NCBI RefSeq assembly: GCF_016025255.1
Contig: NZ_CP065592.1
Span: forward strand, 725,122-789,121
DNA from: Sphingosinicella flava
GTDB lineage: Bacteria; Pseudomonadota; Alphaproteobacteria; Sphingomonadales; Sphingomonadaceae
Reading direction: 5' to 3'
DNA length: 64,000 bases
Shown here: positions 594-60,100 of the stretch, one piece after another
How the letters are laid out: each line of letters opens with the position of its first letter
How positions within the stretch are numbered: position 1 is the stretch's first letter
The notes under the pieces: model-generated
What the model was told of the DNA's origin: nothing
Databases searched by the model: none
What the model saw: only the letters and a program-made list of their open reading frames with translations
Made by a program: the position numbers and the translations under genes

Positions 594-609
594 GCCTCGC
601 GATGATGCG

Positions 610-775
610 CCCCTCCCCCTCGATGGGGGAGGCTGGGTGGGGGTGATCTACGACGTAGGGCACGATCCTTCCGGATGCATCACCCCCACCCAACCAGCGC
701 CGGGTCGGCCATGCTCCCAGCATGGCCTGAACAGCGCGGGGCGCTGTTCACCCGGCACTCCCATCAAGGGAGAAG
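610..775. repeat. Paired inverted repeat (family A) with nested three-way-junction insert
   Basis: A hairpin (CCCCCTCGATGGGGG type) is followed by a GGGTGGGGGTGAT tail, a core containing CTACGACGTAG, an inverted ATCACCCCCACCC tail and a second, diverged hairpin ending near 775. The same layout recurs at 12483, 19524, 19944 and 44420. Here a 58-nt multi-stem insert (699-756) lies between the inverted tail and the last hairpin. The element fills the gap between the convergent icd and monooxygenase genes and may also act as a terminator. Confidence 0.85.
699..756. repeat. Three-way-junction palindromic element, copy 1
   Basis: The outer stem GCCGGG (699-704) pairs with CCCGGC (751-756). Hairpin 1 is GGCCATGCT, loop CCC, AGCATGGCC (707-727). 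Hairpin 2 is TGAACAGCGC, loop GGG, GCGCTGTTCA (728-750). All stems are perfect. The fold, the loop identities and the CGGG/CCCG outer core match the element inside trmFO (9733-9796) and the one at 20030-20087, although most stem sequences differ. Whether it acts as RNA or DNA cannot be told from sequence. Confidence 0.8.
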
Positions 776-777
776 GC

Positions 778-9169: not shown

Positions 9170-10552
9170 ATGACGGCACAGGTTCATATCATCGGCGGCG
9201 GCCTCGCGGGGTCGGAAGCGGCATGGCAATTGGCGCAAGCAGGCGTGAAAGTGCGCCTGTCCGAAATGCGCGGCGTGGAGGCCACGCCTGCCCATCACAC
9301 CGACAGCCTTGCCGAATTGGTCTGCTCGAACAGCTTCCGATCGGACGATGCGGACAATAATGCGGTCGGGTTGCTCCACGCGGAGATGCGAGCCTTAGGT
9401 TCGGTCATCATGGCTTGCGCAGACGTGCATAAGGTTCCAGCAGGATCCGCGCTGGCCGTGGACCGCGACGGCTTCTCGGCCGCGGTGACCGAGAAGGTCG
9501 CGGGGCACCCGAACGTCGAGCTGGTACGCGAGCGGGTGGATGCCCTGCCCGCCGACGCCTCCACTCCCGTCATCGTCGCGACCGGACCATTGACCGCCGC
9601 CAAGCTCGCCGAGTCCATCGGCGCGGCGACCGGGAGGGATGCGCTCGCCTTCTTCGATGCCATCGCGCCCATCGTCCATCGCGACACGATCGACATGGAG
9701 GTGTGCTGGTTCCAGTCGCGGTGGAACAAGGGATCATCGGGCCGTCGATCCCCCGGATCGACTGAAGATTGCCGGGGGCAATCTTCACCCGATGATGGCA
9801 AGGACTACATCAACTGCCCGATGGACAAGGAGCAATATCATGCCTTCGTCCAGGGCCTGATCGACGGCGAGAAGACCGACTTTCGAGAGTGGGAGAAGGA
9901 CACGCCCTATTTCGAAGGCTGCATGCCGATCGAAGTGATGGCGGAACGCGGTATCGAGACCCTCCGCCATGGGCCGATGAAGCCAGTCGGCCTCGACGAT
10001 CCGCGCACCGGGCGCTGGCCCTATGCGGTGGTGCAGCTGCGCCAGGACAATGCGCTCGGCACATTGTGGAACATGGTCGGCTTCCAAACCAAGCTCAAAT
10101 ATGCCGAGCAGGTGCGGCTGTTCCGCACCATTCCGGGCCTTGAAAATGCCGAATTCGCGCGGCTGGGCGGGCTGCACCGGAATACCTTCATCAATTCGCC
10201 GCAACTGCTGGATGGAACCTTGCGGCTGAAGTCGCATCCGCATATCCGCTTCGCCGGGCAGATCACCGGCTGCGAGGGCTATGTGGAATCGGCGGCGGTG
10301 GGCCTCCTCGCGGGGCGGTTCGCGGCGGCGGAGCTTGCAGGCGGCATCCTGCCCCCGCCCCCGCCCGAAACCGCATTGGGCGCATTGCTCGGTCACATCA
10401 CCGGCGGGGCGGAGGCGGACAGCTATCAGCCGATGAACGTCAATTTCGGCCTCTTCCCGCCGATCCTTGGAAAGACCAAAAAGGCGGACAGGAAACAAAT
10501 GTACACGGCGCGGGCGCGCGAGGCGCTTGCCGGATGGCGGGAGGCGATATGA
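9170..10552 (+). CDS. trmFO: Methylenetetrahydrofolate--tRNA-(uracil-54-C5)-methyltransferase with in-frame insert
   Basis: A 460-residue flavoenzyme that forms ribothymidine at U54 of tRNA using methylene-tetrahydrofolate and FAD. It shows the FAD motif GGGLAGSEA (9-17), [16 protein letters not shown], the WFQSRWNKG...GKDYINCP active-site region, and the [11 protein letters not shown] and [14 protein letters not shown] signatures. In relatives WDKGD continues almost directly into GKDYINCP. Here about 20 extra residues ([21 protein letters not shown], ~189-209) interrupt that motif and are encoded by a palindromic element. The reading frame stays open, so the protein is probably made; whether it is active is uncertain. 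It overlaps the next gene by ATGA. Confidence 0.95.
9733..9796. repeat. Three-way-junction palindromic element, copy 2, inside trmFO
   Basis: The outer stem ATCATCGGG (9733-9741) pairs perfectly with CCCGATGAT (9788-9796). Hairpin 1 is GTCGATCC, loop CCC, GGATCGAC (9744-9762). Hairpin 2 is TGAAGATTGCC, loop GGG, GGCAATCTTCA (9763-9787). The layout and loops match copy 1 at 699-756. It has no stop codon in the trmFO frame and sits at a surface-loop position of the family alignment as I remember it. This resembles in concept the palindromic elements inserted in Rickettsia coding genes, without claimed homology. Confidence 0.88.
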
Positions 10553-12479: not shown

Positions 12480-12482
12480 TAG

Positions 12483-12633
12483 CCCCTCCCCTCGATGGGG
12501 AGGGGTTGGGGAGGGGTGATGTTCGGGCAAAGCTCGGTGCGGGTGGAGAGATCACCCCCACCAGCAAGGCGGCAGGTTTGTCCCCCGGACAAACCCAAGA
12601 GCCGCCTTGCTCCTCCCCCATCGAGGGGGAGGG
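12483..12633. repeat. Paired inverted repeat (family A variant) with reduced junction insert
   Basis: The flanking hairpins are CCCCTCGATGGGG (12483-12505) and CCTCCCCCATCGAGGGGGAGG (12612-12632, nearly). The core differs from the other family A pairs: the CTACGACGTAG block is replaced by unrelated sequence. A reduced junction element is nested at 12563-12611: outer stem AGCAAGGCGGC/GCCGCCTTGCT, hairpin GGTTTGTCC, loop CCC, GGACAAACC, then CAAGA where the GGG-loop hairpin sits in other copies. Confidence 0.8.
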
Positions 12634-19506: not shown

Positions 19507-19523
19507 AATTGACTTAGGTAAAG

Positions 19524-19628
19524 CCTCCCCCTTGATGGGGGAGGTTTGGTGGGGGTGATTTACGACGTAGAGCGGAGTGCTTCCGGACGCATCACCCCTC
19601 CCCAACCCCTCCCCATCAAGGAGAGGGG
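19524..19628. repeat. Paired inverted repeat (family A)
   Basis: Hairpin CCTCCCCCTTGATGGGGGAGG, tail TTTGGTGGGGGTGAT, core TTACGACGTAGAGCGGAGTG, tail ATCACCCCTCCCCAACC, and hairpin CCCCTCCCCATCAAGGAGAGGGG. There is no nested junction element. It lies between the stress operon and the DUF4170 gene. Confidence 0.85.
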
Positions 19629-19708
19629 CTATTTACAACCAGCCCCCTTGCCTCTGGCGCCGATCCTGCCTAGGCGGACGGCGTTTCCGGCAAGTCGGGG
19701 TTTAAAGC

Positions 19709-19936: not shown

Positions 19937-19943
19937 TCTATAG

Positions 19944-20107
19944 CCTCCCCCTTGATGGGGGAGGTTGGTGGGGGTGATCTACGACGTAGAGCGCGCCTTT
20001 TCGGAAACATCACCCCCCACCCCAGCAGCACCGGGTGAATACCACCCCGTGCTATTCAGGTCATGCCGAGGACATGACCGACCCGGTACTCCCATCAAGG
20101 GGGGAGG
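19944..20107. repeat. Paired inverted repeat (family A) with nested three-way junction
   Basis: The terminal hairpins and the GTGATCTACGACGTAGAGCG core match the copies at 610 and 44420. The nested element at 20030-20087 has outer stem ACCGGGT/ACCCGGT, hairpin 1 GAATACCAC, loop CCC, GTGCTATTC (one mismatch), and hairpin 2 GGTCATGCC, loop GAG, GACATGACC (one mismatch). It is inserted at the same point of the repeat pair as in the 610 copy. It ends 4 bp before the rhomboid stop. Confidence 0.85.
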
Positions 20108-26686: not shown

Positions 26687-27139
26687 ATGATTCGCGACGA
26701 CATCAAAGCCGCGCTCGTCACCGCCATGAAGGGCGGCGACAAGGAGCGGACGGCCACCATCCGCCTCATCCAGTCCGCGATCAAGAATAGGGACATAGAG
26801 CTGCGCACGGCGGCGAGCGCGCCGGATGACGACGTTTTGGTAACCGAAGTGCTGCAGAAGATGATCAAGCAGCGCCGCGAATCGATCACCATGTATGAAC
26901 AAGGCGGACGGCAGGAATTGACCGACCAGGAAAAGGCCGAGGTCGCGGTGATCGAGGGCTTCCTGCCCGCGCAGATGAGCGAGGACGAGGCCAATGCCGC
27001 CATCGATGCGATCATCGCGGAAGTGGGCGCGAGTTCGGTGAAGGACATGGGCAAGGTGATGGCGGTGCTGAAGGAACGCCATGCGGCCAGCATCGATATG
27101 AGCAAGGCGAGCGGGCTCGTGAAGGGGCGATTGGGGTGA
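26687..27139 (+). CDS. GatB/YqeY domain protein
   Basis: 150 residues, all cytosolic. MIRDDIKAALVTAMKGGDKERTATIRLIQSAIKNRDIELR is the YqeY N-terminus; the rest matches the tRNA-interacting tail domain of GatB (EGFLPAQMSEDEANAAIDAII, GKVMAVLKERHA). The role is unproven but related to amidotransferase/tRNA binding. It is the first gene of a yqeY-dnaG-rpoD cluster, a common alphaproteobacterial arrangement, interrupted here by the DUF559 unit. Confidence 0.9.
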   Translation: MIRDDIKAALVTAMKGGDKERTATIRLIQSAIKNRDIELRTAASAPDDDVLVTEVLQKMIKQRRESITMYEQGGRQELTDQEKAEVAVIEGFLPAQMSEDEANAAIDAIIAEVGASSVKDMGKVMAVLKERHAASIDMSKASGLVKGRLG

Positions 27140-27146
27140 AAATGCC

Positions 27147-27560
27147 CCCCTCCCGCTTGCGGGAGGGGCTGGGGGTGGGCATGGCCTTATTCAAACCACG
27201 GCCGACGAAAATAGCGCGCACTCTTCGCAACAATGCCACGCCTGCCGAGAAGCTGCTTTGGAGGCATTTGTCGGGCCGCCAGCTCGCCGGATTTAAGTTT
27301 AGCCGGCAGATGCCCGTTGCCGGTTACGTTACTGACTTCATGTGCCGAGAAGCTAGGCTGATCATCGAACTGGATGGCGGCCAACATGCCTTGGCAGTGG
27401 AGCGCGATGAAATCCGGACTAAGGCAATCGAAACCGAGGGCTTTCGCGTCATACGCTTCTGGAACAATGATGTGCTTGAACGGACGGAAGGTGTGCTGTT
27501 GGAGATTAAGCGGGTTTTGGGGCCATGCCCACCCCCAGCCCCTCCCGCTTGCGGGAGGGG
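27147..27560 (+). mobile_element. Putative DUF559-endonuclease unit with 40-bp inverted termini
   Basis: The left end (27147-27186) and right end (27521-27560) are inverted copies of each other over 40 bp, differing only in the two loop bases. Each end is a hairpin (CCCCTCCCGC, TT, GCGGGAGGGG) followed by an 18-bp tail CTGGGGGTGGGCATGGCC. The only gene between them is a DUF559 endonuclease whose start codon lies in the left tail. The layout equals the non-coding repeat pairs elsewhere in the window. The unit sits exactly between yqeY and dnaG. Mobility is inferred. Confidence 0.7.
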
Positions 27561-27570
27561 AGGTTTGTGA
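27181..27570 (+). CDS. DUF559 (Vsr-like, PD-(D/E)XK) endonuclease
   Basis: 129 residues. The fold signature is complete: RTLRNNATPAEKLLWRHLSG, FSRQMPVAGYVTDFMC with the first acidic residue, LIIELDGGQHA (E-x-D, metal site), then RTKAIETEGFRVIRFWNNDVLE. DUF559 proteins resemble the very-short-patch repair nuclease Vsr and are thought to be nucleases. The C-terminal ~15 residues (GPCPPPAPPACGRGGL) are encoded by the right inverted repeat. The start ATG 27181 lies in the left repeat; a longer frame from 27136 would only add repeat-encoded residues. Its TGA overlaps the dnaG GTG. Confidence 0.85.
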   Translation: MALFKPRPTKIARTLRNNATPAEKLLWRHLSGRQLAGFKFSRQMPVAGYVTDFMCREARLIIELDGGQHALAVERDEIRTKAIETEGFRVIRFWNNDVLERTEGVLLEIKRVLGPCPPPAPPACGRGGL

Positions 27571-29426
27571 GCCTTTCCCCCCAATTCCTGGATGAACTCC
27601 GCGCCCGCACTCTGCTTTCGTCCGTCATTTCCAAGCAGGTGAAGCTGCTCCGGGCGGGGCGGGAATGGAAGGCGTGTTGCCCGTTTCACAAGGAGAAGAC
27701 GCCGTCCTTCACGGTGAATGATGACAAGGGTTTCTACCATTGCTTCGGTTGCGGCGCCCATGGGGATGCGATCCGGTTCTTGACCGATGCGCAGGGGCTC
27801 CCCTTCATGGATGCGGTGAAGGAGCTTGCCGACAAGGCGGGGATGGAGGTTCCGGCGGCCGATCCACGGGCGCGGGAAAAGGCCGACAAGGCGGCGGGGC
27901 TGTACGATGTCATGGCCGCGGCAGCGCGCTGGTTCGAGGAGCAGCTCGATGGGATCGATGGCGCCGATGCGCGCGATTATCTGAAACGGCGCGGGATTAC
28001 CGAAAAGACGAAGGCGCGCTTCAACTTCGGCTTCGCGCCGGATTCGCGGTCGAAGCTCAAGACAGCGCTCAAGGAGTTCGGAGTTGAGAAGCTGGTCGAA
28101 TGCGGCCTCCTCATCCAGCCCGAAGAGACGGGCAAGGAGCCCTATGATCGCTTCCGGGGCCGCCTGATGATCCCCATCCGCGACCCGCGCGGGCGGGTGA
28201 TCGCGTTCGGCGGACGCATCCTTGGTGACGGCGAGCCCAAATATCTGAATTCCCCGGAAACGCCGCTTTTCGACAAGGGACGGACGCTCTACAATCTCGA
28301 CCGCGCCTCGCCCGCGAGCCGCGATGCCAAGCGCGTCGTGGTGGTCGAAGGCTATCTGGACGTGATCGCCCTCGACCAGGCGGGGATCGGGGAAGGCGTC
28401 GCGCCGCTCGGGACCGCGCTGACCGAGGGACAGTTGGAGCGGCTGTGGCGGCTCTCCCCTACCCCCCTCCTCTGCTTCGACGGGGACGCGGCGGGGCAGA
28501 AGGCGGCAGTGCGGGCGGCCTTGCGCGCCCTACCCCATGTCGGGCCGGGACGGTCGCTCGGCTTCGTCACGCTTCCGGCCGGGCAGGATCCCGACGACCT
28601 CATTCGCGCCAAAGGGCGCGGGGCGCTGGAGGAATTGCTGGGAAACCCGGAAAGCCTGGTCGACCGCTTGTGGCGGCATGAAAGCGCCGCCGAGCCGCTC
28701 GACACGCCGGAGCGCAAGGCGGGCCTCAAGCGCCGTTTGCTCGATCATGTCGGGAGCATCGCCGATCCCGACGTGCGCGATCAATATCGCAGCGCGCTGA
28801 TGGACCGCTTCTATGCGCTGATCCGTCCGCCGCGCCGGGAATGGGTACCCAATCGTCCCGTGCGGGGACAGAGTTTCCAGCGCTTCGCCCCGCCCCGCCC
28901 GGCATCGGCGGAAGCAAAGGCGGTGGGCGCGCGGGGGTTGGCGCCTCATGAAATGCGCGCCGTTCTCGCCGGATTGCTGCGTTTTCCGGGCGCGATCGCG
29001 CCCCATGCCGAGGCCGTGGCGGCGCTTCCGATGGGCGATGCGGGGGCCGCCCGATTGCGCGATGCGATGGTCGATGCGGCCCTGATGCACGGCGAACTTG
29101 ATCAGGAGCGGCTAAATACCATATTGGCGGACGAAGGCGTCGCTGCTCTGGTGGAGCAATTGCGCCTGCAAAAGGGATTGGGCTTTTCCTTCACACGCCG
29201 TGCCGCCGACCCGGAACGCGCCTTTCGCGATCTCGTTCTGGTGATCGAGACATTGGCGGCCAGGCCCGCGCTGGATGCGGCTTTCGAGGCGGCGACGGCA
29301 CGGCTGAAGGAAGATGGAAATGAAGACGCGTTCGCGGAGCAGCAACGGCTCCGGGCGGCGCGGGATGAGGCTGACAGGAGGCTCGCGGCGTTGATGGAAA
29401 GCGACGCGGACCAACCCTCAAGTTAA
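27567..29426 (+). CDS. dnaG: DNA primase
   Basis: 619 residues. The CHC2 zinc finger has ligands Cys38, His41, Cys59 and Cys62 (CCPFHKEKTPSF ... FYHCFGCGAHGD). A primase core with a TOPRIM motif follows (VVVEGYLDVIALDQAG and LLCFDGDAAGQKAA), then a C-terminal helicase-binding domain. It makes RNA primers for replication. The start is GTG 27567: the GGGAGGGGAGG before it, contributed by the DUF559 unit's right repeat, is the only good ribosome site. A frame extending to 27525 would be repeat-encoded. Confidence 0.95.
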   Translation: MSLSPQFLDELRARTLLSSVISKQVKLLRAGREWKACCPFHKEKTPSFTVNDDKGFYHCFGCGAHGDAIRFLTDAQGLPFMDAVKELADKAGMEVPAADPRAREKADKAAGLYDVMAAAARWFEEQLDGIDGADARDYLKRRGITEKTKARFNFGFAPDSRSKLKTALKEFGVEKLVECGLLIQPEETGKEPYDRFRGRLMIPIRDPRGRVIAFGGRILGDGEPKYLNSPETPLFDKGRTLYNLDRASPASRDAKRVVVVEGYLDVIALDQAGIGEGVAPLGTALTEGQLERLWRLSPTPLLCFDGDAAGQKAAVRAALRALPHVGPGRSLGFVTLPAGQDPDDLIRAKGRGALEELLGNPESLVDRLWRHESAAEPLDTPERKAGLKRRLLDHVGSIADPDVRDQYRSALMDRFYALIRPPRREWVPNRPVRGQSFQRFAPPRPASAEAKAVGARGLAPHEMRAVLAGLLRFPGAIAPHAEAVAALPMGDAGAARLRDAMVDAALMHGELDQERLNTILADEGVAALVEQLRLQKGLGFSFTRRAADPERAFRDLVLVIETLAARPALDAAFEAATARLKEDGNEDAFAEQQRLRAARDEADRRLAALMESDADQPSS

Positions 29427-44414: not shown

Positions 44415-44419
44415 GAATG

Positions 44420-44527
44420 CCCCTCCCCCTTGATGGGGGAGGCTGGGTGGGGGGTGATCTACGACGTAGAGCGCGTTCCTTCCGGAGACATCACCCCTCC
44501 CCAACCCCTCCCCATCGAGGGGAGGGG
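44420..44527. repeat. Paired inverted repeat (family A); doubles as terminator
   Basis: Hairpin CCCCTCCCCCTTGATGGGGG, tail CTGGGTGGGGGGTGATC, core TACGACGTAGAGCGCG, tail ACATCACCCCTCCCC, hairpin CCCCTCCCCATCGAGGGGAG plus GGG. The last hairpin is followed by CTTTTTG, so on the plus strand it could terminate tyrS. There is no nested junction element in this copy. Confidence 0.85.
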
Positions 44528-44534
44528 CTTTTTG

Positions 44535-46592
44535 TTAGCCACTCCTGAGCAAGTCCACCGCCGCATCCCTTTCGAAAAGATAGAGAAGGTTGCGCGCCGT
44601 CTGGCCGCGTTCGCCCTTGAGGCCGCCGTCGCGGTCGATGAGGAGACGGGCATCTCCGGTTGCGACGGGCGCAAGTTCCTGGAGGAGTTCGGGCGTGGCG
44701 AGGCGGAATTGCGCTTCGCCCGACTGGCGGGTGCCGAGAATTTCTCCAGCGCCGCGCAGACGGAGGTCTTCCTCGGCGATGCGGAAGCCGTCATTGGTTT
44801 CGCGCATCAGGGCGAGGCGCGCGCGGGCGGTTTCGCTCAAGGCGTTGCCGCGGAGGAGGAGGCAGACGGAGCGCTGGTCCCCCCGCCCAACGCGGCCGCG
44901 CAGCTGGTGGAGCTGGGCGAGGCCGAAGCGGTCTGCGCCCTCGATGATCATCAAGGTTGCATTGGGGACATCCACGCCAACCTCGATCACCGTGGTCGCG
45001 ACGAGGACGGAGAGGCTGTTGCGCTGGAAGGCCGCCATGACAGCGTCCTTTTCCGGGCCCTTCATGCGGCCATGGACGAGGCCGATCCGGTCGCCGAAGC
45101 GCTGGCGGAGGGTGCGGGCGCGTTCCTCGGCGGCGGCCTGATCGGAGGCTTCGCTTTCCTCGACGAGGGGACAGACCCAATAGGCCTGACCGCCGGCCTC
45201 CATGTGACGGCCAAGGGCGTCGACGACTTCGGCGAGGCGATCGACGCTCAGCACGCGGGTTTCGATCGGCTGGCGGCCCGGCGGCATTTCGTCGAGGCGG
45301 CTCACGTCCATCTCGCCATATTGGGTGAGCGTCAGCGTGCGCGGGATCGGCGTTGCGGTCATGACGAGGAGGTGCGGCGGGTGAGCGGCCTTGCTCGCCA
45401 ACATCATGCGCTGTGCGACGCCGAAGCGGTGCTGCTCGTCCACCACGGCGAGGCCGAGATTCTTGTAGCCGACCGCCTCCTGAAAAATGGCATGGGTGCC
45501 GACGAGGATGTGGATCGAGCCGTCCGCTAGGCCCATCAAGGTGGCGTCGCGCGCCCTGCCCTTCTCGCGGCCGGTGAGGATCGCGACATTGACCGGAAGG
45601 CCGGAGAGTTGGCGGATCAGGGTTTCGAAATGCTGGCGGGCGAGAATTTCGGTTGGGGCGAGCAGCGCGCCCTGCGCCCCGGCCTCCACGGCGATCAGCA
45701 GGGCTTCGAGCGCCACGAGCGTCTTGCCGGAGCCGACATCGCCCTGGAGCAGGCGGAGCATCGGCATGTCCTGCTGCATGTCGCCCTCGATCTCGCCCAT
45801 GGCGCGGCGCTGGGCGCCGGTGGGAGCATAAGGGAGGTTGAGCATGGCGCGGAGGCGGCCGTCGCCCTTCAGGGGCACGCCCTTGCGCTTGCGGGACGAG
45901 GCGCGGACGAGGCTGAGCGCAAGCTGGTTGGCGAAGATTTCGTCATAAGCGAGGCGGTGGCGGGCGGCATCGGCCTCCGGATCGCGATGGGCCTGATGAA
46001 GCGCCTTCTGCCAATCCGGCCAGCCGCGTTTCGCCATCAGGCTCGGTTCGATCCATTCGCCGAGGCTGGGGAGGCGTTCGAGCGCCTGTGCGGCAAGCTG
46101 GCCCATGCGGTTGTTGGTGAGGCCTTCGGAGAGCGGATAGACGGGCTCGCGGAGCGGCAGCGTTCCGGCCTCGGCGGGTGGCAAGACATAGTCCGGATGA
46201 ACCATCTGCAATTCCTGGCCGTAGCGGTCGAGCTTGCCGGAGATGATCTTGGGCTCGCCAAGGGGAAGCTGCTTCTTGGCCCAGCCCGGATTGTTGAAAT
46301 ATGTGAGGGTCACGTAATTGCCCGCCTTGTCCGTGGCGTGGACACGGAACGGCCCCCTGCCCCCGCTTTGGCGGTAATCGACGGGCGTCACCTCGACGAC
46401 GATGATGCGGCCGACATCGGCCTCGTCCAGCTCCGCGACGCGGCGGCGCTCAATCCAGCTGACCGGCAGGTGGAACAGGATGTCGGCGACCTTTTCCAGC
46501 CCCAGCCGCTTCAGCGGCTTGGCAAGGCCTGGGCCGATGCCCTTCAGCACCTCCACTTCGGCGAACAGCGGATTGAGTCTATCGGGCCGCAT
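44535..46592 (-). CDS. recG: ATP-dependent DNA helicase RecG
   Basis: 685 residues. The N-terminal wedge/OB domain recognises forks (TPVDYRQSGGRGPFRVHATDKAG region). The superfamily-2 helicase motifs follow: RLLQGDVGSGKTLVAL (Walker A), VVDEQHRFGVAQR (DEQH box), LVMTATPIPRTLTL, IEVGVDVPNATLM and RFGLAQLHQLRGRVGRG. It remodels stalled forks and Holliday junctions. It is convergent with tyrS; its start faces sdhE across a family D repeat. Confidence 0.96.
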   Translation of the reverse strand: MRPDRLNPLFAEVEVLKGIGPGLAKPLKRLGLEKVADILFHLPVSWIERRRVAELDEADVGRIIVVEVTPVDYRQSGGRGPFRVHATDKAGNYVTLTYFNNPGWAKKQLPLGEPKIISGKLDRYGQELQMVHPDYVLPPAEAGTLPLREPVYPLSEGLTNNRMGQLAAQALERLPSLGEWIEPSLMAKRGWPDWQKALHQAHRDPEADAARHRLAYDEIFANQLALSLVRASSRKRKGVPLKGDGRLRAMLNLPYAPTGAQRRAMGEIEGDMQQDMPMLRLLQGDVGSGKTLVALEALLIAVEAGAQGALLAPTEILARQHFETLIRQLSGLPVNVAILTGREKGRARDATLMGLADGSIHILVGTHAIFQEAVGYKNLGLAVVDEQHRFGVAQRMMLASKAAHPPHLLVMTATPIPRTLTLTQYGEMDVSRLDEMPPGRQPIETRVLSVDRLAEVVDALGRHMEAGGQAYWVCPLVEESEASDQAAAEERARTLRQRFGDRIGLVHGRMKGPEKDAVMAAFQRNSLSVLVATTVIEVGVDVPNATLMIIEGADRFGLAQLHQLRGRVGRGDQRSVCLLLRGNALSETARARLALMRETNDGFRIAEEDLRLRGAGEILGTRQSGEAQFRLATPELLQELAPVATGDARLLIDRDGGLKGERGQTARNLLYLFERDAAVDLLRSG

Positions 46593-47015: not shown

Positions 47016-47036
47016 CCCCTCCCCCTTGATGGGGGA
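47016..47036. repeat. Solo half of a family A repeat upstream of mfd
   Basis: A single CCCCTCCCCCTTGATGGGGG hairpin without a facing partner lies 26 bp before the mfd start. It suggests that the halves can exist alone, or that a partner was lost. It could affect mfd translation initiation. Confidence 0.65.
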
Positions 47037-47062
47037 TGGCTTTCTTGGGCGAGCGGCAGGGC

Positions 47063-50000
47063 ATGAGCGACCTTTCCAAGATTCTTTCCGCCAAGGCGCC
47101 CATCACTCTCGCCGGCGCGCCTTCAGGCTTCCTCCCGTGGCTCGCCGCCGATCTGGCGCGGGCCGCCAAGGGTCGCGCCGTGTTCATCGCGCCCGATGAA
47201 GCGGCGATGCGGGCGATCGTCGACGCAGCGCATTATTTCGCGCCGGAATTGGAGACGCTGTCTTTCCCGGCTTGGGACTGCCTTCCCTATGACCGCGCCT
47301 CCCCGTCCCTGCGCGCTTCGTCGGAACGTCTGGCCGCGCTTCATGCGTTGCAGGGCAAGCCGAAGGGGCCGCAGCTGCTCGTCACCACGGTCAACGCCGC
47401 GACCCAGCGCACGCTGACGCCGTTTCGCATTCGCCAACTTGTCGCACGCCTCGCGCCGGGCGAGCGGATCGACCGGGATCGGCTCGCGATGCTCCTCAAT
47501 GCCAATGGCTATGTCCGGGTGGAAAGCGTTCAGGACGCGGGGGAATATGCCGTGCGCGGCGGCCTTGTCGATCTTTTCCCTTCGGGTGAGGAAGAGGCTT
47601 TGCGCCTCGACTTCTTCGGCGACGAGATCGAGACGGTGCGCCGCTTCGACCCGGCGACGCAGCGGACGACGGGGACGGTGGAGGGCTTCACCCTCCTCCC
47701 CGCGTCCGAGGCTTTGCTGGACGAGGAGAGCATCAAAAGGTTCCGGTCGCGCTACCGCGAATTGTTCGGCGCGGCTGCGACCGGCGATCCGCTCTATCAG
47801 GCGGTATCGGACGGGCGGCGGCTGGCCGGGCTCGACCATTGGCTGCCCCTCTTCGAGGAGCGGCTGGCGACCCTGTTCGATCATCTGTCCGATGACGATA
47901 TCGTCGTGCGCGATGCGGGGGATGCGGGAGCGGCCGAGGCGCGGTTCGAGGCGATCGCCGATTATTTCGAGAACCGGAAACGCGCACAATCGAGCGATCC
48001 GGGCAGCTACCGGCCGCTCGAGCCCAAAACGCTCTACCTGACGCGCGAGGAATGGCAGACGCTGATCGAGGATCGGCCGCTGCATCTGACGACGCCTTTC
48101 CACGAGCCGGAAAGCGCGAGCGTCGTCGACTTCGAAGTGGACGGCCCGCGCGACTTCGCGCCGGAGCGGGCGCAGAACGCCAATGTCTATGAAGCGGTGG
48201 TCGCGCATGTGACGGCGCTCCGGCGCTCAGGGCACAAGGTGGTGTTGGCGAGCTATACGGGCGGCGCGCGGGAGCGGTTGAAAGGCCTGCTTGCCGACCA
48301 TGGCCTCACCAAGACGGTCGAGGCGAATGGCTGGCAGGAGGCACTGGGCGCGGCGGCGAAGAACCAGGTCGCGCTGACCGTCGTCCAGCTCGACCACGGC
48401 TTCACGACCAAGGACGTGGCCCTCCTCACGGAGCAGGACATGCTCGGCGACCGGCTTGTGCGGCGCCGCAAGCGGAAGAAGAGCGCGGATGCTTTCCTGT
48501 CCGAGCTTGCGACGCTGAGCCCCGGCGATCTTGTCGTCCATGCCGATCACGGCATCGGGCGTTACGAGGGGCTGACGCAAATCCCGGTCGGTACCTCCCC
48601 GCACGATTGCGTGGCGCTCGAATATGCGGGCGGCGACAAGCTCTACGTGCCGGTCGAGAATATCGACGTGCTTTCGCGCTATGGCAGCGGCGAGGAAGGC
48701 GTCACGCTCGACAAATTGGGCGGCGAGGCCTGGCAGCGGCGCAAGGCGCGGATGAAGGAGCGGATTCGCGAGATCGCGAACGAGCTTATCAAGACCGCCG
48801 CCGAGCGCGCGCTCCGTCCCGGCGTGGTGGCGGAGCCGGACACCGGCTATGCCGCCTTCGTCGACCGCTTCCCCTATGAAGAAACCGACGACCAGGATCG
48901 CGCGATCCAGGATGTGATCGACGACCTCGGGGCGGGCAAGCCCATGGACCGGCTGGTCTGCGGCGATGTCGGCTTCGGCAAGACCGAAGTGGCCCTGCGC
49001 GCGGCCTTCATCGCGGCGATGGCGGGGTATCAGGTGGCGCTCGTCTGCCCGACCACCCTCCTGGCCCGCCAGCATTATAACAGCTTCAAGGAACGGTTTC
49101 AGGGTTTCCCGCTCGAGATCGGGCGCCTGTCTCGCCTCGTTCCCGCCGCCGAGGCGAAGGCAACGAAGGAAGGCCTGACCGAGGGCAAGGTCGATATCGT
49201 CATCGGCACCCATGCCCTCCTCGCCAAGGGCGTCGAGTTCAAGAAATTGGGTCTCGTCATCGTCGACGAGGAGCAGAGGTTTGGCGTCACCCACAAGGAA
49301 CGCCTGAAGGCGATGCGGGCGGACGTGCACGTCCTCACCCTCACCGCGACGCCGATCCCGCGCACGCTGCAAATGGCCATGTCGGGCCTGCGCGAACTGT
49401 CCGTCATCCAGACGCCGCCGGTCGACCGCCTGGCGGTGCGCACCTATGTCATGCCCTGGGATCCGGTGGTGCTGCGCGAGGCCCTGCTCCGCGAACATTA
49501 TCGCGGCGGGCAAAGCTATTTCGTCGTGCCGCGCATCGCCGACCTGCCGGAGATCGAGAAATTCCTGCGCAACGAGGTGCCGGAGGTGCGCTATGTCGTC
49601 GCGCACGGGCAGATGGCGGCGACGGACGTGGAAGAGCGCATGTCCGCTTTCTACGACCGGAAATATGAGGTGCTGCTCTCGACCACGATCATCGAGAGCG
49701 GGATCGACATTCCGACGGCCAACACGCTCATCATCCACTGTGCCGACCGCTTCGGCCTCGCCCAGCTCTATCAGCTCCGTGGGCGCGTAGGCCGGGCGAA
49801 GACGCGGGCCTACGCCTATTTCACCACGCCGGAGACGCGCACGGTCACGGAAAGCGCGGACAAGCGCCTGCAGGTGCTCGCCAATCTCGATAGCCTGGGC
49901 GCGGGCTTCCAGCTGGCGAGCCACGACCTCGACATTCGCGGCGCGGGCAACCTGCTCGGCGACGAGCAGTCCGGGCATATCAAGGAAGTGGGCTTCGAGC

Positions 50001-50524
50001 TTTACCAATCGATGCTCGAGGATGCGATCGTCGGCGCCAAGGCGGGCGACGCCGGCCTTGCCGCGGGCCGTGAGGAATTCTCGCCGCAGATCACCGTCGA
50101 CGCGCCGATCATGATCCCGGACGATTATGTGCCCGATCTCGACCTCCGCATGGGTCTCTACCGCCGCATGAACGAGCTTGAGACGGCCCAAGAGATCGAG
50201 GAGTTCGCGGCCGAGATGATCGACCGCTTCGGGAAACTACCCGAGGCGACGGACAACCTCCTCAAGATCATCGAGACGAAGAACAATTGCCGCAAGGCCT
50301 GCATCGTGAAGCTGGACGTGGGTCCGAAGGGCGCGCTCGTCAGCTTCCAGAATGACGAGTTTCCCGACCTTCAGGGGCTGATCGCCTACGTCCAGCGCCT
50401 GAAGGGCACGGCGAAGCTGCGGCCGGATTCGAAGCTCGTCATCACCCGCAGCTGGCCGGACCCGCAGGCGCGGATCAACGGGGCGGTGCAGCTGTCAAAG
50501 GGGTTGGCGAAGATATTGGGATAG
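47063..50524 (+). CDS. mfd: Transcription-repair coupling factor
   Basis: 1153 residues. The UvrB-like N-terminal region is followed by the RNA-polymerase-interacting Tudor-like domain (LSPGDLVVHADHGIGRYEGL). The RecG-like translocase has RLVCGDVGFGKTEVALRAAF, IVDEEQRFGVTHKERLK, TLTATPIPRTLQMAMSGLRELS and QLYQLRGRVGRAKTRAYAYF. The C-terminal TRCF domain is intact. Mfd removes stalled polymerase and recruits UvrA. ATG 47063 is chosen because upstream in-frame codons are repeat-encoded. Confidence 0.97.
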   Translation: MSDLSKILSAKAPITLAGAPSGFLPWLAADLARAAKGRAVFIAPDEAAMRAIVDAAHYFAPELETLSFPAWDCLPYDRASPSLRASSERLAALHALQGKPKGPQLLVTTVNAATQRTLTPFRIRQLVARLAPGERIDRDRLAMLLNANGYVRVESVQDAGEYAVRGGLVDLFPSGEEEALRLDFFGDEIETVRRFDPATQRTTGTVEGFTLLPASEALLDEESIKRFRSRYRELFGAAATGDPLYQAVSDGRRLAGLDHWLPLFEERLATLFDHLSDDDIVVRDAGDAGAAEARFEAIADYFENRKRAQSSDPGSYRPLEPKTLYLTREEWQTLIEDRPLHLTTPFHEPESASVVDFEVDGPRDFAPERAQNANVYEAVVAHVTALRRSGHKVVLASYTGGARERLKGLLADHGLTKTVEANGWQEALGAAAKNQVALTVVQLDHGFTTKDVALLTEQDMLGDRLVRRRKRKKSADAFLSELATLSPGDLVVHADHGIGRYEGLTQIPVGTSPHDCVALEYAGGDKLYVPVENIDVLSRYGSGEEGVTLDKLGGEAWQRRKARMKERIREIANELIKTAAERALRPGVVAEPDTGYAAFVDRFPYEETDDQDRAIQDVIDDLGAGKPMDRLVCGDVGFGKTEVALRAAFIAAMAGYQVALVCPTTLLARQHYNSFKERFQGFPLEIGRLSRLVPAAEAKATKEGLTEGKVDIVIGTHALLAKGVEFKKLGLVIVDEEQRFGVTHKERLKAMRADVHVLTLTATPIPRTLQMAMSGLRELSVIQTPPVDRLAVRTYVMPWDPVVLREALLREHYRGGQSYFVVPRIADLPEIEKFLRNEVPEVRYVVAHGQMAATDVEERMSAFYDRKYEVLLSTTIIESGIDIPTANTLIIHCADRFGLAQLYQLRGRVGRAKTRAYAYFTTPETRTVTESADKRLQVLANLDSLGAGFQLASHDLDIRGAGNLLGDEQSGHIKEVGFELYQSMLEDAIVGAKAGDAGLAAGREEFSPQITVDAPIMIPDDYVPDLDLRMGLYRRMNELETAQEIEEFAAEMIDRFGKLPEATDNLLKIIETKNNCRKACIVKLDVGPKGALVSFQNDEFPDLQGLIAYVQRLKGTAKLRPDSKLVITRSWPDPQARINGAVQLSKGLAKILG

Positions 50525-57161: not shown

Positions 57162-60100
57162 TCAAGCCGCTCCGGGCCGGTAGCGGTCGATTAAGGCGGC
57201 GGGAAGCGGGTGAAGCACCGGCGTGCTGGTGTAAAGCAAGGCCGCATCCACCCTCTTGCCGGGAAAAATAACTTCCAGGGCCGCGACATAGGCCGCCATT
57301 TGGCGCAGATGAGGTACGGGAATGCCGTCGGGCGCGGCCGGCGCACGGTGGCCGGTCTTGAAATCGGCGACGAGGATGCGCTCCTTGCCGATGAGCAGGC
57401 GGTCCGCCGTTCCGGAAATGACCGAACCGTCGGGTGTCACCGCCGCGATCGGGGCTTCGGCGAAGGCATCCGTCCCGAAAAGGTCGCGATAGCGCGGATC
57501 GGCGATGATCGCGCAGGCGCTGTCCACCAATTCCTTGCGCAAGGCGGAATCGTCGACGCCCCGCGCCCGCGCCAGCCAATCATCGGCGCGTTGGGCACGA
57601 AGGCCAGGCGGCACGCCAGGCAGCCGCTCGAACAATTGATGGAGCAGCTTGCCGCGTTCGGCGGCAAGGCGAAGAGCCGGGGAAGGCGGCGGATCGGCGA
57701 CATCGTCATCGGCGATCGACGAAGGCGCCAATGGTCGCGGCGGGCGCGCTTCCTCCGGCGCCGGGCGAAACAGCCACCCGGGAAGCGGCGGCGGAGCCTG
57801 CCGGGCGGCGTCGACGGAGCGTCTCCCCGGCATTTCGGTCTCGCCATGGATACGGGCACGCTGCCACAGGGGCATGTCCCGCCATTCCGCGCCAAGGCCG
57901 GTCAGCGTCCGTTCGATGGCGGCATACCAGCTGTCGGCTGGCGGACCGCTGCGGTCGGCAGGGCCGAGCGCGCCGCCGATATAAAGCCGCTCCTCCGCCC
58001 GCGTCAGCGCGACGTAGAGAAGGCGCCAATGCTCCGCGCGGTCCCGCGCCTCCTGCGCTGCGATCCCGGATTTCATCGGCTCGAACAGTTCATCCTTGCG
58101 CGGCCGGAAGACCGGCACCTCTAGATCGCCGTCCAAGCGCAAGGCTGCCTTGCTCTCCCGCTTCCGCGACGGATCGACCGTTGCGTCGGCAAGGATGACG
58201 ACAGGCGCCTGAAGCCCTTTCGACCCATGGACGGTCATGACCCGGACGGCGTCGAGCGGCGCGGAAGGATCGCGCACGATTTCGACATCGCCGCGCGCGA
58301 ACCAGTCGAGGAAACCCTGAAGCGACGGCGTGCCCCTGCTTTCGAAATCCAGGGCGGCGGCGAGCAATTCCTCGATCGGGTCGCGCGCTTCATGGCCCAG
58401 GCGCTCGATGAGCTTGCGCCTGCCCTGCATCGGACCGGACAGAATCGTTTCAAGAAAGCGGTGAGGCGTCGTCAGATCGGCCATGCCAAGGAGGCCGACG
58501 AGAGCTTCCACCGTATCCGGCACCCCCGCCTTGGCGCGGAGATGCGGCCAGAGTGCGCCCTGACGACCGCGCGCCGCCGCATAAAGGGCATCCTGGGTCC
58601 AACCGAAGAGCGGCGAGACGAGCAGGTTGGCGAGGTTGAGATCGTCGAGCGGCTGAAGCGCGAAGCGTATGGCTGCGATGAGGTCGCGCACGGCGAGGGG
58701 CGCGTTGAGGAGCAGACGGTCGATGCCTGCCACCGGCACGCCTTCGGCATGCAGACGCGCGACGATCAGGCCGGCGAGCGTGCTCCTGCGGCGGACGAGG
58801 ATCAGGATATCCTCCGGCCGCAGCGGCCGTTTCCCGCCCGCCACCAGGAAAGGCCGGTCGAGCCAGTTGCGGATCTGCTTGGCGAGCGCGGCGGCGTAGC
58901 GGCGGGTGGCATCGCCGATCCACCCCTCCTCGCCTTCATCCATCTCCTCTCCCTCCCCGCCTTCGGCGGTAAAGGGGGCCCAGAGCGTCACCGAACCGGC
59001 CCGGCCGCGATGGTGGCTTTCGTGCGCCTCCGCCGGAGCGAGCAGCCCCAGTCCTTGCGGTCCCAGGTCATCGAGCCAGGCGTCGACGAAAGACAGGATG
59101 GCGGGTGAGGAACGGAAGCTGCGGCTGATCGACAGGTCGAGGAAGCGGGTTGCCACCGCCTCCGCCTCGCGCCCGAACCAGGCGCGCGCGACTTCGAACG
59201 CTTCCGGATCGGTGCCCTGGAAACCGAAGATCGCCTGCTTGTAATCGCCGACGGTGAAGATGGTGCGCCTGCCCGGCGGTTCGAATTCGCCGCCGCCGCG
59301 CGCGCCCTCGCCTGCGAAGAATTCCAGAGCGAGGGCGCGGACGATGTTCCACTGCCGCTCGTTCGTGTCCTGCGCTTCGTCGATCAGGATATGATCGGTG
59401 CGCTGGTCGAGCTTGTAACGCACCCAGTCGCCCATGCCTGGCGTCAGCAGCAGCCTTTCGGCGGTCCGGATCAGATCGTCGAAATCGACCGCCCCCGCCG
59501 CGCGCTTGGCATCGGCATAAGCGAAAGCAAAGGCTTGCCCCGCGCGCAGCCCGGCCGCGAGCGCCTTTGCCAAAGCCGCCTTGGCCCGCATTTCGATTAG
59601 GGTTTTGCAGCATTCCGCCAGGTCGGCGGCGAGCCGTTCATAATCGGGATCTGCGCCGATCTGTCCTTTGGCGACTGCGCGCATTTCACCGTCCTTGCGG
59701 AGCACGATTTCGGCCAGGTCCGATAAGGCCGCCGCCCTTTCACCAGCATGGCGTGCCCGCCAAGCCGTGATCGCTTCGCAGCATTTGAGGCCCGTCGCGG
59801 TGCCCCAGGCGCGATTGGCGGCCGAAATGCGATCGAGCAAACCGAGATCGAACATGGCGTCGTCGCAAAGACCTGCGATCCGTTCTTCGATATTGCCGGA
59901 CGGAAGATCGAAGGCCCGCCGCAGCCGCGCCTCAATCCCAGGCGCCGCGCCGAGGGCCGCCATCGCGTCCGGCGCCCGCGCGCATTGCATCAGGAAGCCT
60001 TCCGCCCCGGCCTCGCCCAGCCGATGGCTGAGCGACTGCACGTCGGCGATCAGGGAGAGATTCCCACCCGTTTCGGCGCGAACCAGCAAGTCGGCCAGGG

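Follow-up and report, generated by a model that had tools for sequence, protein, structure and literature searches.

Integron attC sites combine a variable sequence with a conserved fold that is recognised as a folded single strand; each forms one long hairpin and is linked to cassettes and an integrase. MITEs are small and non-autonomous and have inverted-repeat ends. Among palindromic repeats, the accessible part of PMC3733652 describes GTAG- and CGTC-tagged REP palindromes and REP dimers within palindromes, and it reports that CGTC repeats have no transposase dedicated to them; Y1 proteins and REP hairpins are described in the accessible part of PMC6006769. Rickettsia palindromic elements (RPEs) sit in frame in protein genes and add a peptide to the product (PMC10969869, accessible sections), and template switching is reported to maintain stems (PMC8794818, accessible sections).

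In the stretch of 64,000 nt from Sphingosinicella flava analysed here (the window), the covariance model R2 recovered three full copies and a weak reduced copy of one element (Table 1), confirming as real the recurring element that a sequence-only reading had picked out; its CGGG/CCCG core, CCC loop, and GGG or GAG loop were all present in the copies. In the common orientation, the plan consists of a 9-bp outer stem, a 10-bp hairpin 1 with loop CCC, an abutting 9-bp hairpin 2 with loop GGG, a GA bulge, and the closing strand of the outer stem. In a second size class, which includes the copy in trmFO, the hairpins measure 11 and 8 bp. The length is exactly 64 nt in 111 of 156 copies (57 from alignment A6 and 99 from alignment A7).

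The element resembles each of the described systems in part. With attC sites, as generally described, it shares the variable sequence and conserved fold, but it forms a three-way junction rather than a single long hairpin. It is small and non-autonomous with inverted-repeat ends like a MITE, yet it makes no target duplication, 4 bp of the target are lost, and its ends are variable stem sequence. It resembles REP, REPIN, and BIME repeats in being short, GC-rich, palindromic, and present in many copies with paired inverted hairpins, and some of those families also lie within other palindromes (PMC3733652, accessible part). In contrast to them, its outer feet pair into a third stem, its stems vary while pairing is kept, its triloops are CCC and GGG, its length is ~64 bp, no GTAG or CGTC foot is found in the 58 aligned copies inspected, and it occurs in genomes without a Y1 transposase. 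Like an RPE it enters protein genes in frame and adds a peptide, but RPEs are ~150 bp long and belong to Rickettsia (PMC10969869, accessible sections), whereas the element exchanges 64 bp for 4 bp, lies mostly outside genes, occurs in Sphingomonadaceae, and has a conserved three-way junction. A literature search, with most subscription papers outside its reach, found no published description, and none of the window copies matched Rfam 15 at gathering thresholds; within this scope, the earlier statement that no element with the same plan was known holds. Based on sequence comparisons, we consider it probable that the element is a ~64-bp non-autonomous, REP-like mobile DNA palindrome whose fold would be the signal for a putative enzyme that mobilises it in trans.

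Table 1. Positions of element copies, host palindromic repeats, and trmFO in the window.
Feature	Position	Strand	Description	Evidence
Element copy 1	696..759	-	64 nt; outer stem 9 bp, hairpin 1 loop CCC, hairpin 2 loop GGG, GA bulge	R2 84.8 bits
Element copy 2	9733..9796	-	64 nt, in frame within trmFO; hairpins 11 and 8 bp	R2 68.4 bits
Element copy 3	20027..20090	+	64 nt; 25/28 pairs Watson-Crick; second loop GAG	R2 66.7 bits
Reduced copy	12564..12610	-	Outer stem and one hairpin, loop GGG on the model-matching strand	R2 34 bits, E 3e-4 (252-kb search)
Host palindromic repeat (REPIN-like), left part, split by copy 1	609..695	+		D1-D3 repeat families
Host palindromic repeat, right part after copy 1	760..777	+		Sequence, empty/filled comparison
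Host palindromic repeat, left part, split by copy 3	19941..20026	+		Repeat families
Host palindromic repeat, right part after copy 3	20091..20107	+		Repeat families
Host palindromic repeat, left part, split by reduced copy	12481..12562	+		Repeat families
Host palindromic repeat, right part after reduced copy	12612..12633	+		Repeat families (I11)
Empty host palindromic repeat, no element	19521..19634	+		D1/D2 families
Empty host palindromic repeat, no element	44419..44533	+		D1/D2 families; 96% to query
trmFO	9170..10552	+	Copy 2 encodes a net 20-residue insertion, about residues 189-209	NCBIfam NF003739 675.9 bits, cut-off 262

A junction with an outer stem of ~9 bp, abutting hairpins of ~10 and ~9 bp, triloops CCC and GGG, and a GA bulge can be folded on either strand of the copies; both strands of a good copy fold alike, and R2 detects many copies on both strands. 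For copies 1 and 2, the three-way junction is the predicted fold of the single-stranded DNA, and it is far better than that of shuffled sequences (z -7.4 and -7.5; matched by 0 of 200 shuffles). Three pairs are imperfect in copy 3, whose lowest-energy DNA fold differs from the junction (z -3.3, matched by 1 of 200 shuffles; z -3.6, matched by none, in a second run). Watson-Crick pairs make up 27 of 28 in copy 1 and 25 of 28 in copy 3, and copy 2 is paired at 28 of 28 positions despite its divergence (33 of 64 nt identical to copy 3 without gaps). A descriptor scan for two abutting perfect hairpins within an outer stem gave three matches in the window compared with 1, 0, 1, 0, and 0 in five shuffles; two of them were copies 1 and 2, and the third, at 58790, was unrelated. 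Pairing between the CCC and GGG loops was also considered. Where the first loop had changed, GGG was kept in 7 of 8 cleanly parsed copies of one set and 3 of 3 of another, and this lack of compensation leaves loop-loop pairing unsupported.

The plan is nearly unchanged by reverse complementing, so the sequence-only reading, which took copies 1 and 2 on the strand opposite to copy 3, had compared copies on opposite strands. Its statement that the stems differ almost completely was not confirmed for the window: after re-orientation, 49 of 64 positions are identical between copies 1 and 3 (30 in the original reading), as are 33 of 44 hairpin positions (13 in the original reading). Of the full copies in the window, only the one in trmFO shows real stem turnover. 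The reduced copy does have the outer stem attributed to it, but on the matching strand its hairpin does not carry the reported CCC loop (Table 1). It is probably a deletion derivative and is missing among the 16 matches listed for the genome scan with model R1.

In the host genome of the window (2.42 Mb, a single contig), a pattern search returned nine places, seven of them true copies by inspection, while the reversed pattern gave three matches; model R1, built from six copies, found nine places at 52 bits or more, with the next best at 20.5. In a scan of 60 genomes, our own included, at least 23 matched (22 of 26 in the genus, 1 of 10 in the rest of the family, and 0 of 24 in the rest of the order). 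With R2, at least 53 of 396 genomes of the order matched (9 of 84 genera, a single family), as did at least 2 of 385 genomes of the class, both in Sphingomonadaceae; the large scans used stricter filters, and the order and class scans scored only 13 candidates per genome, so that these counts are lower bounds and an element-free genome is one in which none was found there. A fuller search of 14 element-bearing genomes gave 15 to 36 matches in seven (36 in G412 and 20 in G313) and 5 to 9 in seven. Queried with one 64-nt copy, phages gave no match, and plasmids gave 6 records, all from S. parapaucimobilis. From these scans the element appears to be a family of Sphingomonadaceae, a single bacterial family.

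Many short inverted-hairpin copies were thus found per genome, as is characteristic of REP/REPIN. A classic REP/REPIN, with two inverted REP-like hairpins and complementary feet, would be moved by TnpA-REP (RAYT, HUH/Y1), and the two inverted hairpins with inverted feet, the many copies, and the association with other palindromes would suit it. Y1_Tnp (PF01797) was also present in 7 of the 14 element-bearing genomes compared with 1 of 14 genomes with no element found (Fisher P 0.03; the two groups also differ in genus). However, Y1_Tnp was absent from our own genome and from the element-rich G412, G313, G216, and G311, and a Y1 transposase was rejected as the mobiliser, given that none occurs in our own genome with its nine places, in G412, or in G313. 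The outer feet, moreover, pair and covary, and A5 shows neither of the tagged feet. A classic REP/REPIN is unlikely on this evidence. Based on the absence of Y1_Tnp from our own genome, G412, and G313, the element is filed as REP-like in behaviour and not as a RAYT-associated REP.

Across the family, the claim that stems turn over while pairing is kept was borne out, mean identity among 58 copies being 59% in the stems and 96% in the loops. In alignment A5, whose 58 of 95 listed copies were picked for clean parsing and under-represent weaker copies, 96.4% of 1599 stem cells were paired (67.2% in shuffles), 26 of 28 pairs varied on both sides, and 444 cells showed double changes (119 in shuffles). 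The covariation score was 0.731, compared with 0.178 for shuffles and at most 0.118 for versions with slid partners, although model-fitted alignments and the choice of better copies bias towards pairing; covariation was lost once partners were slid by one column. The check proposed by the sequence-only reading, a scan of the genome and its relatives with covariance models, thus turned up additional copies that stand well clear of background and covary very strongly, so that structure is what is conserved, as that reading had suspected.

RNA stems are expected to tolerate G-U pairs. Alignments A6 (57 copies) and A7 (99 copies, from the best 150 of 178 R2 matches) together hold 155 distinct copies, and their 4330 paired cells contained 41 G-T/T-G, 54 A-C/C-A, and 77 other mismatches (8 and 13 of the first two kinds in A6, 33 and 41 in A7). 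There was no wobble excess in these stems (P 0.11, opposite direction). A5 gave 24 G-T/T-G and 23 A-C/C-A in 1541 cells, the basal pair of hairpin 2 (columns 37-57) being excluded because the 8-bp type was misaligned there. In contrast, tRNAs from the same loci gave six G-T and no A-C in 96 pairs (8 of 11 tRNAs used; a small sample). The loops and junction are therefore conserved by sequence and the stems by pairing, without the wobble tolerance of RNA, and since G-T and A-C are about equally rare, the fold seems to be conserved at the level of DNA rather than RNA.

An RNA gene, an RNA regulatory structure, or a transcription terminator could also account for strong covariation, stable folds, and GC-rich hairpins that are often intergenic. 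Besides the mismatch counts, which differ from those of the tRNAs, the plan is similar on both strands, and genes contain copies in either orientation. No T-run was found directly 3' of the nine own-genome copies on the element strand. No window copy matched Rfam at gathering thresholds, the sole window match being a tRNA (Rfam 15), and ten weak matches at 600-800 scored well under their gathering scores. An RNA or terminator identity is thus very unlikely. Covariation is commonly read as proof that an RNA is functional; in this element, a clean natural example, it seems to be maintained on DNA instead. Pipelines that rely on covariation could take elements of this kind for RNAs, and comparing G-T with A-C mismatches separates the two.

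The most frequent setting in our own genome is a REPIN-like host repeat of ~109 bp (CCTCCCC...GGGTGATC...ATCACCC...GGGGAGG; 79 genome-wide matches, both strands counted). Seven of the nine own-genome places lie at one point of this repeat, in both orientations; the remaining two are the trmFO copy and a copy in a different palindromic repeat, which lies between genes read as prfA and prmC. In relatives, the element was found within several other host repeats and adjoining terminator-like hairpins. A stem of at least 7 bp was present at the insertion site of 67 of 162 copies compared with 95 of 581 control positions, which were not confined to intergenic DNA (P 1.5e-10); insertion sites are enriched for hairpins. 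The central spacer of the abundant host repeat was itself seen in both orientations. A second palindromic repeat (CCCCTCCCGCTTGCGGGAGGGG) forms an inverted pair at 27134-27186 and 27521-27573, 334 bp apart, and a 127-nt inverted repeat (44882-45008 and 49670-49796, 72% complementary) lies in opposite long ORFs, 44535-46592 (-) and 47036-50524 (+), which are perhaps paralogous genes.

The concentration of own-genome places at one host-repeat point, and the many G412 copies that lie in two composites, raise the possibility that the element is a passive part of host palindromic repeats, copied along with them and itself immobile. Many copies in host repeats may indeed have been copied in this way rather than moved themselves, as in G412. 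As an account of the whole family, immobility is nevertheless improbable: several different host repeats are used, the trmFO and queE copies stand without any host repeat, empty host repeats are common, both orientations occur at the same point, and identical 64-mers in G279 stand in host repeats with differing flanks.

Copies have inserted at sites where relatives lack them, with 64 bp in place of 4 bp where closely compared, often in palindromic repeats or hairpins and sometimes in frame within genes. This exchange (+60, in frame) was found in trmFO, in queE, and in the host repeat. The commonest empty arm in our own genome reads ...CACCCAACC-CTCC-CCCATCAAGG (11 of 60 arm matches, overlapping loci kept); against the empty host repeat CACCCAACC/CTCC/CCCATC, the filled form has 64 nt replacing CTCC, and 4 of 5 distinct filled arms listed begin with CACCCAACC followed by the 64 nt. 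No target-site duplication was seen at the compared filled and empty sites, 4 bp of the target being lost. The filled repeats of G412 lack CATG, and the empty form with CATG was found in only four loci of other genomes (L034, L051, L278, and L300) and in none of the G412 loci, so that the 4-bp loss is weaker evidence there. A derivation of the element ends from the target was considered because one end resembles the lost 4 bp in trmFO and queE. The CTCC of the host repeat matches the ends AGYN...NRCT at two bases at most, and the idea of an inverted target copy was therefore dropped as a general one.

In trmFO, copy 2 adds 20 codons net, and the sister genome G027 is empty at this site (AAGGG-TGAA-GG), with TGAA where the element stands. 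Among the trmFO matches listed, Allosphingosinicella vermicomposti is the nearest named relative (87%). The G027 locus includes the trmFO locus of this species, so that the two empty sisters are one genome. The copy was absent from all 23 other parsed loci, some of them of one genome; 28 loci were unparsed. The insert was modelled without structure, as a disordered loop between two strands (insert pLDDT ~31-33, model mean 74.6; residues 185-210 under 50). The queE gene of G030 (NCBIfam TIGR04508 332.6 bits, cut-off 240) carries a weak copy (R2 40.2 bits). All 11 aligned orthologues are empty, and 3 of these 11 read TGGGG-CGAG-G while the others vary there. In Sphingomonas parapaucimobilis YK209, copies lie within annotated, uninterrupted cobN and cysteine desulfurase frames. 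In-frame presence within protein genes, as known for RPEs, was thus found in trmFO and queE by comparison with empty orthologues and in cobN and cysteine desulfurase by annotation; ORFs that span elements are mostly what GC-rich DNA yields by chance, and they were left out of the genes considered. The cobN and cysteine desulfurase frames lie on YK209 plasmids, and in both the element comes with a host repeat (about 4495-4558 of L382 and about 1993-2058 of L383). By sequence reading, a GFA-like gene of G003 (L196, G003:C77) holds at least three packed copies, the first of which creates a stop, and looks like a broken gene that is collecting insertions.

At a locus read as xerC, G033 and G030 are filled at the orthologous place and 11 orthologues are shown empty; the two filled copies have nearly the same hairpins and a different outer stem. 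The net gain here is 62 rather than 60: the filled stretch has 94 nt, and 7 of the 9 empty sites that were parsed have 32 nt. G006 (L337) and G007 (L338) have a longer stretch at this locus in which R2 finds no element, perhaps another insertion.

The number of open frames out of six averaged 3.51 over the 155 distinct copies, and the 110 copies of 64 nt gave 3.53 compared with 3.51 for a pair-shuffled control. Selection for open frames was rejected on this equality; an element can insert in frame without being specially designed to code. How a repeat comes to lie in frame within genes is a question that the Rickettsia palindromic elements pose as well, and for genes like trmFO and queE the exchange of 64 bp for 4 bp suggests a simple route.

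In the favoured reading of a mobile palindrome, a putative enzyme supplied in trans would recognise the folded strand, on the lagging strand or in an extruded cruciform, by its loops and junction, cut it, and join the element at exposed hairpins. With the fold as the signal, only well-paired copies would spread, and stem letters would then drift in matched pairs, perhaps aided by template-switch correction of imperfect palindromes during replication. Effects on the host, such as hairpins at gene ends and extra protein loops, would be a by-product. Tentatively, and with more doubt than confidence, we propose the stronger form that this is a chromosomal mobile element signalled by a folded three-way junction rather than by its letters, for which a structure-specific enzyme acting in trans would swap 4 bp for 64 bp. 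If true, the swap would keep reading frames automatically and free the stems to drift in paired steps.

As an alternative to selection on structure, the sequence-only reading had suggested a replication mechanism, such as template switching, that rewrites stems. The comparison of stem changes covered the 96 copies of 64 nt in which 23 or more of the 28 pairs are formed. Near-identical copies with one altered pair comprised 7 matched and 6 one-sided cases, and those with two altered pairs comprised 8 matched, 10 mixed, and 2 one-sided cases, matched double changes being as frequent as one-sided ones. Of the 129 paired changes, 85 were transitions, the pattern that point mutation with subsequent repair or compensation would leave. 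Altered pairs were adjacent at a frequency of 0.67 compared with 0.30 expected from uniform placement, about twice as often, among copy pairs that are not independent. Wholesale rewriting from foreign templates is not favoured by these changes, which would fit either point mutation followed by selection of well-folded copies or template-switch correction; of the earlier suggestion, only the latter form may hold.

Quasipalindrome correction by template switching accounts for perfect stems and paired DNA-level changes (PMC8794818, accessible sections), but it is a mutation process rather than an element and leaves the spread and the conserved loops unexplained. The same source reports, in those sections, that template switching makes and mends perfect stems; together with the frequent adjacency of paired changes and the hairpin-enriched sites, this could suggest that copies arise locally at hairpins and are unrelated by descent. 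Such an origin is extremely improbable, since different genera share the loops, bulge, junction, and length and matches lie within one family, which is not expected of local origin. With well over 100 copies, empty sites, and close relatives, the family is a test bed for how perfect palindromes are kept, by selection on the fold or by template-switch correction. The orthologous filled xerC site of G030 and G033 (L153 and L166) is a good case for this question: the hairpins are nearly identical, and three adjacent outer-stem pairs are altered, two of them on both sides.
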